Shown: in pieces, positions 48,910 through 64,000 of the stretch | Position numbering within the stretch: the stretch's first letter is position 1 | Layout of the letters: every line of letters starts with the position of its first letter | Source: Pseudomonas sp. N040 | GTDB taxonomy: Bacteria > Pseudomonadota > Gammaproteobacteria > Pseudomonadales > Pseudomonadaceae | Direction of reading: 5' to 3' | NCBI RefSeq assembly: GCF_015637705.1 | Contig: NZ_JADOBE010000009.1 | Location: 124,001-188,000 of the forward strand | Length of the DNA: 64,000 bases | Translations under genes and position numbers: made by a program | Notes under the pieces: model-generated | Database searches by the model: none | The model's input: only the letters and a program-made list of their open reading frames with translations | Told to the model about the DNA's origin: nothing

Positions 48910-49055
48910 GGGCATGTCCGGGTTGGCTTTTTTGCACGGGCGAGCCTGCTCGCGATGCGTTCGCATGGCCTGTTTCGGCTTCGCTCCAGCTCCTGCATCG
49001 ATGCAGTCGTCGCCCGCAAGCTGGCGCCGGCAGCAAGCGAAAAGTGGCTGGCAAC
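48910..49055. repeat. Degraded copy of the REPIN-containing MITE-like element
   Basis: About 145 bp that matches the element at 62389-62528 in several blocks: the outer GGCATGTCC, then GCTTTTTTG, GCGAGC(C/T)TGCTCGCGATGCG, GCAAGCTGGC, and the trailing AAGCGAAAA-GTGGCT-GCAAC. The terminal repeats are eroded and the middle has diverged, so it is an old, probably immobile copy. It occupies most of the gap between the luciferase-like gene and the following minus-strand gene. Confidence 0.65.
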
Positions 49056-53331: not shown

Positions 53332-53355
53332 GGCTATGTGCCTGTTACGTGTTGC
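53332..53355 (+). repeat. Solo terminal repeat of the MITE-like element
   Basis: This 24-bp segment matches 21 of the first 25 positions of the left terminal repeat at 62389-62413 (GGCTATGT...TACGTGTTGC). It starts 4 bp after the mocR stop. No right-hand partner or REPIN follows, so it is either a deletion derivative or an end created by recombination. Confidence 0.55.
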
Positions 53356-57894: not shown

Positions 57895-58258
57895 AACCGT
57901 ATCCTCCGGGCGAGAGTCTTAGAGGCGCAATTGCGGGTTGCACAGCAGACGAATTCGACTTCGTCAGAAAACAGCCAGCCCACCATAAAGGCTAGCCGTT
58001 TTGCCTGCGGCAAAAAGACCGTGTTGTTCTATAGGCGCAGCGTCCTGATCTATTCAATCGACGCCGCTTGCCGGTGCTGCTGGTGGCTCTCGCACTGGAG
58101 CGCGGGAATACGAAAGTCCGCAACAGTTCATCACCCAGACCGCATGGGTATCGCCACGCTGCAGCAATCCTGCGCACTGGGGATGCCAGCGAAGGGGGAC
58201 GGAATGGTTTGATTGGAGATAGGGCAGGGTGGGTCAAGAATAAATTACTCCTCCCCCT
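57895..58258. other. Intergenic region with repeat copy A
   Basis: 364 bp between two minus-strand genes. It ends in copy A of the ~60-bp repeat (58201-58260), directly abutting the bactofilin stop. The rest shows no recognisable gene. Confidence 0.45.
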
Positions 58259-58260
58259 TC
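58201..58260. repeat. ~60-bp dispersed repeat, copy A (uninterrupted)
   Basis: Aligns without gaps to copies B (60480-60540) and C (62346-62555, interrupted). Shared blocks are GGAATGGTTTGATTGGA at the left, GGTCAAGAATAAAT in the middle and CTCC-CCCCCTT at the right. It is located just downstream of the bactofilin gene. Confidence 0.75.
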
Positions 58261-58684
58261 AGCCTTCCTTCGCCTGCAGGTGAGGCAGTTCCAGAACCTG
58301 CGCGGAACTTGCGCCGTCTTCCAGGCGATTCAGGGTACCGTCAACCACCGCACCGTTTTCCATGCTCAACTGGCGATAACTGATATTGCCGCGGATCCGC
58401 GCATTGGAGTGCAACTCCAGCAAGTGTTCGACGGCCAGGTCACCAATGATGGTGCCGTCGATCAACGCATCGTGACTGCTTACGTGTCCCTCGATCCGCC
58501 CCTCGGCACTCAGCGCCAGCAGGCTGCCAGTTCCCGCTTTGTGGGTGACATTGCCCTTGATCACACCGCTGACCTTAAGGCCGCCCTCGAACTCCAGGTC
58601 ACCGGTCAGCGACACGTTGTCGGAAATCAGGCTGGAGAACTTGTCGATGGACAGGCGTGACTCGGTCTTTTTGCTGCGGAACAT
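58259..58684 (-). CDS. Bactofilin (polymer-forming cytoskeletal protein)
   Basis: A 141-residue protein with short unstructured ends and a central right-handed beta-helix (about residues 20-118: LTGDLEFEGGLKVSGVIKGNV, EGRIEGHVSSHDALIDGTIIGDL, ARIRGNISY). Bactofilins polymerise without nucleotides and organise cell-wall enzymes. It is the third gene of an operon with a membrane coiled-coil protein and an M23 peptidase, an arrangement known for bactofilin-LmdC systems that shape cells. It ends at repeat copy A. Confidence 0.9.
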   Translation of the reverse strand: MFRSKKTESRLSIDKFSSLISDNVSLTGDLEFEGGLKVSGVIKGNVTHKAGTGSLLALSAEGRIEGHVSSHDALIDGTIIGDLAVEHLLELHSNARIRGNISYRQLSMENGAVVDGTLNRLEDGASSAQVLELPHLQAKEG

Positions 58685-60020: not shown

Positions 60021-60573
60021 GACTCTTTCCTGAAAACCAGATGGCCTGACCGACGGAGGCTAACGGTTACGAGAAATGAGGACAAGAAAAAATGCGTCAT
60101 AAAAAAGGCGTCAGAATTTCGAAGCATCGGAGAAAGGGGCGGTGATAACCGCTTCTGTGCCAGTGTCGTCCAGCCATCGAACTGCGCGGGCAGCCGGATA
60201 AACCTGTCAGGAAACCGGCTGGAGGCACTGTGCTGTGAGGCATTGGCCAGCGCTGCCCGGTGCGGGTGGTCAGGCAGTTCCCGCAGCGGCGCCAAAGCGA
60301 GGGTGACCGCGTCCAGCGGCAAGGCGGCGACTTCTTCCGTTTGTCGGATGATCGCTGCGCGCAGCTATAGGCCGCCGTTAGCCATCGGTGGCCGGCAAGG
60401 TTGCCAGCCATGAGGGTGACCCGGTGAGCACCCTGCGCAAGTCATGGCGGCATGCTGTTCGGCGCGGTGCGAATGGGCTGGAACGGCTTGACTGGAACCA
60501 TGGCTCGGCTGGTCAAAGATAAATTTCTCCGACCTCTTTAGCGGACCCCTTTAGCGTCAAGGCCACTGGTTGG
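60021..60573. other. Intergenic region with possible gene remnant and repeat copy B
   Basis: 553 bp. On the minus strand about 60170-60360 an open frame reads like a protein fragment (RQTEEVAALPLDAVTLALAPLRELPDH and similar), bounded by a stop at about 60367-60369 and lacking a start signal. I do not recognise its parent. Copy B of the ~60-bp repeat follows at 60480-60540. Confidence 0.4.
60480..60540. repeat. ~60-bp dispersed repeat, copy B (uninterrupted)
   Basis: Same family as copies A and C: GGAACGGCTTGACTGGA, then GGCTGGTCAAAGATAAAT and TCTCC-ACCTCTTT. Its right end lies 34 bp beyond the stop of the DUF1345-like gene. Confidence 0.75.
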
Positions 60574-62197: not shown

Positions 62198-62388
62198 CCT
62201 GCTCCTCGGGGCTGTAGGGGGTATCGATGACCGGGGCAGCATATCGTCCGCTCATTCACCTCGAAAGGGGCAAGGCTGTCGAAGAGGGGCCTTTTTGCCA
62301 GTTGATGGAGCGTCACTCCGGGGCGTTGGCGCGATCAACGGGGCCGGAGTGGCTTGATTGGAAATATGGCCTGGCTGGTCAAAAATGA

Positions 62389-62528
62389 GGCTATGTCCCA
62401 GGTACGTGTTGCTGAGCTTTTTTGTAGGAGCGAGCTTGCTCGCGATGCGCTGGCATAGCCTCTCGCCAGCAAGCTGGCTCCTACAGAAAGCGAAAAAGTG
62501 GCTAGCAACACATAACTGAGACAGAGCC
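62389..62528. mobile_element. 140-bp MITE-like element with terminal inverted repeats and internal REPIN
   Basis: Terminal inverted repeats of 25 bp (62389-62413 and 62504-62528) match at 21 of 25 positions. The flanks are AAAAATGA on the left and AAAAATAA on the right, a likely 8-bp target duplication. Inside, a REPIN with 23-bp arms (62423-62445 and 62463-62485; 21 of 23 matches) carries TGTAGGAGC and the G/C-AGCTTGCT core. There is no coding capacity, so movement would need a transposase acting in trans. The RAYT gene 1.1 kb away is a candidate for the REPIN part only. Confidence 0.75.
62423..62485. repeat. REPIN inside the MITE-like element
   Basis: Inverted arms 62423-62445 and 62463-62485 each begin TGTAGGAGC when read inward. 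The 17-nt centre reads GCGTTGGCAT-like. The arms share their core with the REPIN at 51815-51876. Confidence 0.8.
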
Positions 62529-62577
62529 AAAAATAAATCTCATCGCCCCCTTTGAGCCTCTTTCGCGAGCAACCCAG

Positions 62578-63432
62578 ATGACAAGTACCGACAAGCCCGA
62601 GGATGCGCTGTTTGAGCAGGTGTTGATGAAGCTGGGCATTGGCCATCGCCCCACGCCGACAGGGCAGGGCTTGCGCACCGTGTATGCGGCGTGGTGCCGG
62701 CAGATTCCGTTCGACAACGTGCGCAAGCTGATTCACGCACGGGCCAATGATGCGCGGCCATTTCCCGGCAGCACGGCGGATGATTTTTTCCGGGCGTGGC
62801 TGCAGCACGGCACCGGCGGCACCTGCTGGTCGAATGCCGGTGCCTGCCATGCACTGCTGCAATGGCTCGGTTTCGACGCGCAGCGCGGCGTGGCAACGAT
62901 GCTGGCCGCGCCGGATATTCCGCCCAACCACGGCACGGTGTGCGTGAACCTGGATGACGGCCAGTACCTCGTCGACACCTCGATACTGCACGCTGAGCCC
63001 ATCCGCTTCGAACCCGCACGTGCGAGCGCGCATGCGCATCCCGCCTGGGGCGTGCAGGGTGACTGGCGTGACGGGCGCTTTCACCTCGACTGGCGGCCGC
63101 TGCACAAGGTCGACGGCTTTGCCTGCCGCTTCGAACGCTTCGGTGCCAGCGCGCAGGAATTCCATGACCTGCATGAACAGACGCGCGGCTGGAGCCCGTT
63201 CAATTTCGAGCTGAATGCCCGCATCAACCGCGGCGACGAGGTGGTGGGTCTGGCCTTTGGCCAGGCGGTCACCCTGCACGCCGACGGCAGCGTCAGCCAA
63301 AGGCCGGTTGACGACCGCGAGCGCCGCCGCATTCTGGTTGAAGAGGTCGGATTGAGTGAAGCGATCGTCAGCCAGCTGCCGCCCGACATCCCCACGCCAC
63401 CCCCGCCCGGGTCAAGGTCGGCGGGGCAGTGA
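62578..63432 (+). CDS. Arylamine N-acetyltransferase-like protein
   Basis: A 284-residue protein with the NAT catalytic triad Cys83 (GTGGTCWSNAGAC), His118 (NHGTV) and Asp133 (LVDTSIL), in the spacing of NAT enzymes. RQIPFDN near residue 41-47 is also conserved. NATs transfer acetyl from acetyl-CoA to aromatic amines or hydrazines. The usual RGG before the cysteine is TGG. A proline-rich tail ends the protein. No strong ribosome binding site is seen ahead of the ATG at 62578. Confidence 0.82.
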   Translation: MTSTDKPEDALFEQVLMKLGIGHRPTPTGQGLRTVYAAWCRQIPFDNVRKLIHARANDARPFPGSTADDFFRAWLQHGTGGTCWSNAGACHALLQWLGFDAQRGVATMLAAPDIPPNHGTVCVNLDDGQYLVDTSILHAEPIRFEPARASAHAHPAWGVQGDWRDGRFHLDWRPLHKVDGFACRFERFGASAQEFHDLHEQTRGWSPFNFELNARINRGDEVVGLAFGQAVTLHADGSVSQRPVDDRERRRILVEEVGLSEAIVSQLPPDIPTPPPPGSRSAGQ

Positions 63433-63471: not shown

Positions 63472-63505
63472 GTAGGGTGGAAAACTCGCGAAGCGATTTT
63501 CCACC
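63472..63505 (+). repeat. REP with 5' GTAG, copy 1
   Basis: GTAG (63472-63475) is followed by arms GGTGGAAAA (63476-63484) and TTTTCCACC (63497-63505) around CTCGCGAAGCGA. A 5' GTAG tetranucleotide plus stem is the defining layout of RAYT-associated REPs. Confidence 0.82.
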
Positions 63506-63549: not shown

Positions 63550-63581
63550 GTAGGGTGGAAAACGGCACAGCCTTTTCCACC
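63550..63581 (+). repeat. REP with 5' GTAG, copy 2
   Basis: GTAG (63550-63553), GGTGGAAAA (63554-63562) and TTTTCCACC (63573-63581) around CGGCACAGCC. Same orientation as copy 1 and only 22 bp from the 3' end of the RAYT gene. Confidence 0.82.
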
Positions 63582-63602: not shown

Positions 63603-64000
63603 TTACTCTCCGAACCCCCCAGGCTCCGTCAGCGCAGCACCGCACCAATCCTGCGGATACACCCCCATCGCCACGGCGCGGTGAAAGCTCGAATATGGCC
63701 AGTCCGCCAGCCGCTGCACATACCCGTGCTTCAGCGGGTTGAAATGGATGTAGTCGAAGTGGCGCTGGTAATCCTGCTCGTCACGGATCAGGTGTTCCCA
63801 GTAGCGCCGTTGCCAGATGCCGCGCTCACCCCTTTTGGATTGTGAAGCGGTGAGTGATTCCCCGCGAGGCAGGCGTCTGGCGAAGGCGAATTTGATCACC
63901 TTCCAGCGCCGCGCGAAGTCGGCATCTCCTTGCGGCAGCGTCCACAGGCAATGCATGTGCTCGGGCAGCACCACCCAGGCATCGATGTGGAAGGGGTGGC
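63603..64000 (-). CDS. REP-associated tyrosine transposase (RAYT), partial at window end
   Basis: The last 132 codons are present; the N-terminus is beyond the window. The frame reads HPFHIDAWVVLPEHMHCLW, containing the HUH metal-binding pair, and then IWQRRYWEHLIRDEQDYQRHFDYIHFNPLKHGYV, which holds the likely catalytic tyrosine and the RAYT-specific helix. RAYTs are single-copy Y1 transposases of the IS200/IS605 group that process flanking REP hairpins. Two GTAG-REPs lie just downstream. No premature stop is seen. Confidence 0.9.
   Translation of the reverse strand, partial: HPFHIDAWVVLPEHMHCLWTLPQGDADFARRWKVIKFAFARRLPRGESLTASQSKRGERGIWQRRYWEHLIRDEQDYQRHFDYIHFNPLKHGYVQRLADWPYSSFHRAVAMGVYPQDWCGAALTEPGGFGE

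Follow-up and report, generated by a model that had tools for sequence, protein, structure and literature searches.

Near the right-hand end of the window, the 64,000-nucleotide stretch of Pseudomonas DNA analysed here, lies an element of 140 bases (62389-62528) in the intergenic DNA ahead of an N-acetyltransferase-like gene (Table 1). It is bounded by 25-bp terminal inverted repeats (TIRs) that, as the preliminary description had it, are complementary at 21 of 25 positions (84%). Between these ends sits a REPIN, which the same description placed correctly to within one base (62423-62485, the REPs proper spanning 62424-62484) and whose arms (62419-62445 and 62463-62489) are 89% complementary. 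The flanks match at 7 of 8 positions, with one base different, in keeping with the 8-bp target duplication proposed for them. No coding capacity is evident, again as described, the open reading frames across the element being mechanical only. From the right end of the element to the start of the N-acetyltransferase gene is 49 bp, and a search for promoter or terminator patterns at 62200-62620 found none.

When the whole element is folded as RNA, the TIR stem and the REPIN stem form one continuous hairpin of -75.6 kcal/mol, compared with a shuffle mean of -45.4 kcal/mol (z -8.1, for single-stranded RNA); folding of the same element with DNA parameters gives a z of -7.7.

Table 1. Features at and around the element (window coordinates)
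Feature	Position	Strand	Basis
Uninterrupted ~60-bp repeat copy, paralogous empty site	58201..58260	.	joined-site alignment
Uninterrupted ~60-bp repeat copy, paralogous empty site	60480..60540	.	joined-site alignment
Interrupted ~60-bp repeat, left part	62337..62380	.	joined-site alignment
Left copy of 8-bp target duplication (AAAAATGA)	62381..62388	.	single copy in uninterrupted paralogues
Left TIR of MITE	62389..62413	+	arm comparison; same end type on IS1595-family insertion sequences
First REP of REPIN, GTAG-tagged	62424..62445	+	REPIN-type matches at at least 40 places in the same genome
Second REP of REPIN, inverted, GTAG-tagged	62463..62484	-	read from sequence, arm comparison
Right TIR of MITE	62504..62528	-	arm comparison
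Right copy of 8-bp target duplication (AAAAATAA)	62529..62536	.	flank and paralogue comparison
Interrupted ~60-bp repeat, right part	62537..62566	.	joined-site alignment
N-acetyltransferase-like gene, downstream	62578..63432	+	Pfam Acetyltransf_2, E 1.1e-8
RAYT gene, running on to C33:188127	63603..64000	-	NF047646, 178 and 204 bits

Paralogous empty sites in the window

The element interrupts one copy of a ~60-bp repeat of which two nearby copies are intact, and here too the initial reading holds. We removed the element together with its left octamer and aligned the resulting joined site with the two uninterrupted copies, using 2000 base shuffles as the control. The alignment score was 64 against 58190-58275 (best shuffle 22) and 61 against 60465-60550 (best shuffle 24); these two regions align more weakly with each other (score 37, best shuffle 27). 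Each uninterrupted copy contains the target octamer once (AAGAATAA and AAAGATAA). The repeat is a weak one, because in a BLAST search of the same genome (58190-58275 as query, E<=1) the matches listed include no additional convincing copy and neither of the other two in the window. All three copies, including the interrupted one at 62337-62566, are intergenic and hold an imperfect TTGAYTGG...CTGGTCAA inverted repeat.

An orthologous empty site was looked for with 1.1 kb around the window copy, which matched 2 of 57 genomes, its own included, and revealed the locus in no other genome; the match in the second genome covers 69 bases, the length of a REPIN. A protein search with the N-acetyltransferase (E<=1e-20) found it in 1 of 398 sampled genomes of the genus, its own, and in 0 of the 397 others, which suggests that the gene is a recent gain. 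It is therefore the paralogous empty sites alone that support the window copy.

Copies in the same genome

The whole genome contains 11 sites with a TIR-like 26-mer (up to 3 mismatches), compared with 0 for a reversed control pattern. A genome-wide search gave 69 REPIN-type matches on both strands that merge into 40 places, a lower bound because 40 of 75 first-look candidates were scored. Six of these at least 40 places clearly extend into TIRs, four of them complete (the window copy, one on contig C29 and two on C12), one decayed (C4) and one truncated (C23). The remaining 34 are essentially REPIN alone, without TIR ends, as expected for a repeat that also lives on its own. Both TIRs are present on the three complete copies outside the window, so that what these copies share is the ends as well as the REPIN. 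The 8-bp duplications looked for at each of them were confirmed in part: the one at C12:255k is perfect (AACAAAAA), that at C12:221k agrees at 7 of 8 positions, and the copy on C29 needs a one-base shift. With two inverted GTAG-tagged REPs, a hairpin and many stand-alone copies, the cargo itself is a REPIN in the usual sense.

Two further elements, on contig C30, have the same end type around a different palindrome (GTAGGGTGGGCTNNAGCCCACC type); the duplication of the first is perfect (TATCGCAA), and the second shows no clear one. Elsewhere in the window, a REPIN-type match without TIRs lies at 48926-48971, and a lone TIR-like end (2 mismatches) at 53332-53355 stands just ahead of a palindrome (GGTGGGTTGCGCC...GGCTAACCCACC); together they may be the remains of a MITE that carried a REP.

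Partner elements of the IS1595 family

A full-length transposon with matching TIRs, which the preliminary description proposed to look for, was found, and it belongs to the IS1595 family. An ISL3-type origin, our first guess, was dropped once the partner proved to be IS1595. In a plasmid search the 20 matches listed were mainly of REP length, and one weak match pointed to an insertion sequence on the Aeromonas hydrophila plasmid pMAH4 that is annotated as IS1595 and has the TIR GGCTATGTCCCAATTACGTGTTGCA and the duplication ATAAAAAA. The TIR pattern (up to 2 mismatches) is present in 10 of 199 sampled genomes of the genus, the window's own included, and 30 places with the pattern from this sample were taken as loci. 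Scanning of named genome contigs for the TIR pattern gave 112 stretches, mostly from Pseudomonas and Aeromonas, with Azotobacter, Polaromonas, Aromatoleum and others as rarer hosts.

Pairing of TIRs over all loci yielded 123 pairs, or 95 distinct sequences: 80 of at most 439 bp, 13 of 982-1036 bp, and two of 719 and 846 bp. At the 13 elements of insertion-sequence size, the flanking octamers are perfect in nine cases, agree at 7 of 8 positions in one and are not clear in two, and one element comes without its left flank. Three proteins from such partners were tested (from Pseudomonas sp. MRCP1333, Pseudomonas sp. UBA2684 and Aeromonas popoffii). All three match Pfam DDE_Tnp_IS1595 and the NCBIfam IS1595 transposase model NF033547, the latter with 189-200 bits (cut-off 75); for the N-terminal zinc-finger model NF050000 their scores of 22-26 bits stay below the cut-off of 28. 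Duplications of 8 bp, a single transposase gene and the DDE_Tnp_IS1595 domain are the marks of the family in an excerpt of its published description (PMC8101967).

Cargo of the short elements

The survey set comprises 77 distinct short elements, left after three masked ones were dropped from the 80, and falls into 30 lineages by clustering of the interiors; it includes one nested pair (L062) and some elements with a poor second end. Target duplications are perfect at 32 of 76 short elements and agree at 7 of 8 positions at another 13 (45/76 at 7/8 or better), whereas random pairing of flanks reaches that level in 3.5%. At least one copy at 7/8 or better is found in 21 of the 30 lineages.

We counted interior inverted repeats without reference to any motif: a score of at least 12 is reached in 58/77 elements, compared with 7/405 flank windows and 1/231 shuffles, and in 23 of 30 lineages, the other seven lacking such a repeat. 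A REP tag is present in 69/77 elements and 28/30 lineages versus 22/580 flank windows, a tag count that is partly circular because the tags were chosen and written down after the cargo had been read. The motif-free count and the REP counts in host genomes, given below, serve as safeguards against this circularity, and GTAG and CGTC ends are REP marks already in print (PMC3733652, in the part available). An inverted pair of one tag occurs in 55/77 elements and in 18 of 30 lineages (12 without), compared with 1/580 flank windows. None of the 13 insertion-sequence-size elements has a REP tag. The flank controls are length-matched windows from the same loci with TIR-like cores left out and coding DNA kept, and are mostly not matched for intergenic location. 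The preliminary description called the window element an unusual mobile unit; the survey contradicts this, REP cargo being the rule among the gathered MITEs of the family (the same 69/77). The type of REP differs between lineages. Its placing exactly in the middle of the element is only weakly borne out, with a median relative offset of 0.34 versus 0.5 for random placing.

Cargo and the host genome

In the six genomes counted, the cargo is an abundant REP of its own host. Matches to the CGTC-type REP number 130 in G075, 52 in G215 and 71 in G419 (Pseudomonas ullengensis), which carry it in their MITEs, and 0 in each of three others (G000, G201 and G144). The GTAGGGTGCGC-type REP is matched 249 times in G103, 204 times in G208 and 214 times in G090, again carriers; among seven other genomes there are 0 matches each in G000, G172, G422 and G423, 1 each in G420 and G421, and 43 in G154, yet the one MITE seen in G154 carries another type. 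All of these are counts of REP units, those inside MITEs included. For 26 of 68 MITEs with an inverted repeat score of at least 9, the REP is also found elsewhere in the same genome, away from TIR-like sites, a count in which the comparison DNA for many of the rest amounts to a few kilobases per genome. Six of the 26 come from the window's own genome, where loci were fetched by REP matches; leaving that genome out gives 20/62.

One locus provides a shell without its cargo. L118, an 82-bp element of Pseudomonas sp. UBA2684, has the same shell as its 150-bp siblings L093 and L097, apart from some substitutions, and cleanly lacks their 68-bp REPIN, with GTG at both edges. This may be either the shell before a REP entered it or the shell after a REP was lost. 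Another locus allows comparison with and without the whole element. In G075, a 120-bp element (L057) with the perfect duplication TTTTCATT lies directly after the terminator of the gene that ends upstream, which we take to be fabB; G013 has the terminator at the same locus and no element, the remaining spacer being too divergent for base-by-base alignment. A motif look for a counterpart of L057 in three other relatives (L200, L206 and L210) found nothing.

Target sites and tandem insertions

Of 74 insertions, 24 have a strong hairpin (score of at least 9) as their immediate neighbour, compared with 38/1392 shifted positions, an effect whose size is uncertain because the control positions are unmatched for A+T content or intergenic location. 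Where an insertion adjoins a hairpin, its octamer is often a run of T or of A, much as a terminator has; the window copy is not one of these insertions. At five loci (L159, L152, L131, L182 and L054) neighbouring elements form a tandem pair whose octamers, in the middle and on the outer sides, are identical or nearly so, and these pairs look as if a new copy had entered the target duplication of an old one.

Transposases, RAYTs and present activity

A search of the window's own genome, a 33-contig assembly, with two family models found no IS1595 transposase; such a transposase is present in 8 of 20 MITE-bearing genomes searched, a set that includes the window's own. Elements with both TIRs surround the gene in G420 and G075, with perfect octamers (TTTTTTAT), and in G422, without a clear octamer. 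The best matches in the other five genomes have one TIR (G090 and G144) or no TIR pair (G103, G201 and G424). Draft assemblies may hide insertion sequences.

The window's genome has two RAYT genes, flanked by GTAGGTTGGG- and GTAGGGTGGAAAA-type REPs, which are not the cargo types, and at these two loci no cognate RAYT flanked by the cargo REP type was found. Beside the RAYT gene in the window, the GTAGGGTGGAAAA-type REPs lie at ~63472-63505 and ~63550-63581, and this type was not seen as cargo. Since no IS1595 transposase was found and the RAYT genes stand beside other REP types, the copy in the window looks stranded. In this genome the system is probably inactive, and the element and its cargo both seem, as far as the 33-contig assembly shows, to be without their enzyme now. 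The lack of a transposase in the same genome bears on present activity, not on descent.

Origin of the composite element

Taken together, these results make it very probable that the window element is a non-autonomous IS1595-family MITE that carries a REPIN of the host's type as a passenger and would be moved in trans. The suggestion of a REPIN inside a DDE-type MITE, already made in the preliminary description, is supported by the copies with both TIRs and by an IS1595 partner with the same ends, and the arrangement recurs in several Pseudomonas relatives, each with a local hairpin repeat of its own. We predict that a DDE-type IS1595 transposase recognizes the 25-bp ends (GGCTATGTCCCAGTTACGTGTTGC type); it would move the shell in trans and leave an 8-bp A+T-rich duplication, while the REPIN rides between the ends. 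Related MITEs in other Pseudomonas would have acquired the REP family abundant in their host and then multiplied with it. The ends shared with IS1595, the duplications, the two-ended copies, the lineage-specific REP types and the REPIN-less sibling can all be read in the sequences; mobilization in trans is our interpretation. So is the view that the shell was there before the REP, which would have come in through RAYT-type insertion or a local rearrangement, and that the ends did not arise around a REP.

Two rival accounts concern whether a DDE-type MITE with a REP passenger is the right description at all. The TIR-plus-REP unit could have been moved by a RAYT and not by a DDE enzyme, like the 'TIRtrons' around some tyrosine transposases. 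A RAYT gene does lie 1.1 kb from the MITE (window 63603 onwards), and excerpts of PMC3733652 describe structures, numbering in the hundreds in P. putida and P. fluorescens, in which degenerate GTAG-1 units adjoin unrelated stem-loops, the same arrangement being found in the repeats that flank two RAYT genes. However, the 8-bp target duplications and the IS1595 transposase genes between the same TIRs argue against movement by a RAYT, as do the two RAYT genes of the window's genome, which have REPs of other types, and no such TIRs, on their flanks: we looked for TIRs around the tyrosine transposase at both loci and found none, the TIR matches near one of them being those of the window MITE. Movement by a RAYT is thus largely refuted, and we consider it very improbable. 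It could also be that REPs are so plentiful in the intergenic DNA of Pseudomonas that whatever small mobile element lies there contains one by chance. REPs are indeed numerous in these genomes, but length-matched flank windows hold a tag in 22/580 cases and an inverted pair in 1/580, and we regard chance as very improbable.

A third account accepts the IS1595-type MITE and differs in one step, the order of events, with the MITE ends closing around REPs as the transposase gene was lost; the REP would have been there first, and no jump into a shell would have occurred. Consistent with this, CGTC REPs are common cargo though apparently without a dedicated transposase (PMC3733652, as excerpted), and L148 retains IS-like sequence just inside one TIR. 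Against it stands L118, which is the L093/L097 shell minus the REPIN with a clean GTG junction, although that junction may be the product of excision or of a slippage deletion. Closure around a resident REP is a serious possibility. We lean slightly towards entry of the REP into an existing shell and regard capture during MITE formation as nearly as likely.

REPs are common bacterial repeats whose spread is unsettled, above all that of the CGTC REPs (PMC3733652, in the same excerpts). A MITE family that regularly carries the REPs of its hosts would give them another way to spread, one that is open to test, and would preserve a natural record of captures made time and again; the pair with and without a REPIN, together with the perfect target duplications, makes the order of events testable. 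The MITE route is minor in the genomes counted, where most REP copies lie outside such MITEs. As a tentative proposal, IS1595-type MITEs may be a general second vehicle for REPs in Pseudomonas, shells that take up host-abundant REPs again and again, CGTC REPs included, and spread them through DDE transposition, with terminator T-tracts as frequent targets. The shell may benefit from the REP in return, which could help its ends to pair or make the insertion harmless to transcripts.

Comparison with known systems

An IS1595-family MITE is a known kind of element; regular, varied and host-matching REP cargo is what we did not find in print. Our search covered the open-access literature, with most subscription papers outside its scope, and gave no report of REP-carrying IS1595 MITEs. 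Like IS1595 insertion sequences as partly described in PMC8101967, the elements have TIRs and 8-bp duplications, and their partners have one DDE_Tnp_IS1595 transposase gene; unlike them, the window element has no gene and has a REPIN, and we place it at the level of the family and in no group. MITEPsy1 and MITEPsy2 of Pseudomonas syringae are likewise Pseudomonas MITEs without genes, but their TIRs are different, MITEPsy1 duplicates 4 bp, and the available part of their description mentions no REP cargo (PMC3189936). The R0 and R2 repeats of P. fluorescens SBW25 are also intergenic, have inverted ends and were proposed to be MITEs of insertion sequences, moved in trans; according to the portion of PMC2718517 that we draw on, their REP-like inverted repeats are the ends themselves, whereas the present elements have REPs enclosed by TIRs that are distinct from them.

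The closest parallel in print comes from A. variabilis and H. neapolitanus, where a longer palindrome regularly encloses REP dimers and no empty palindrome was found (PMC3733652, section 7); that section names no target duplication, insertion sequence or Pseudomonas. With the REPIN/RAYT system, as outlined in an excerpt of PMC3116915, the window element shares two inverted GTAG-tagged REPs that form a hairpin and have many stand-alone copies. REPINs are thought, in that same excerpt, to move bare; here the REPIN is boxed in DDE-type ends and has been amplified with them.
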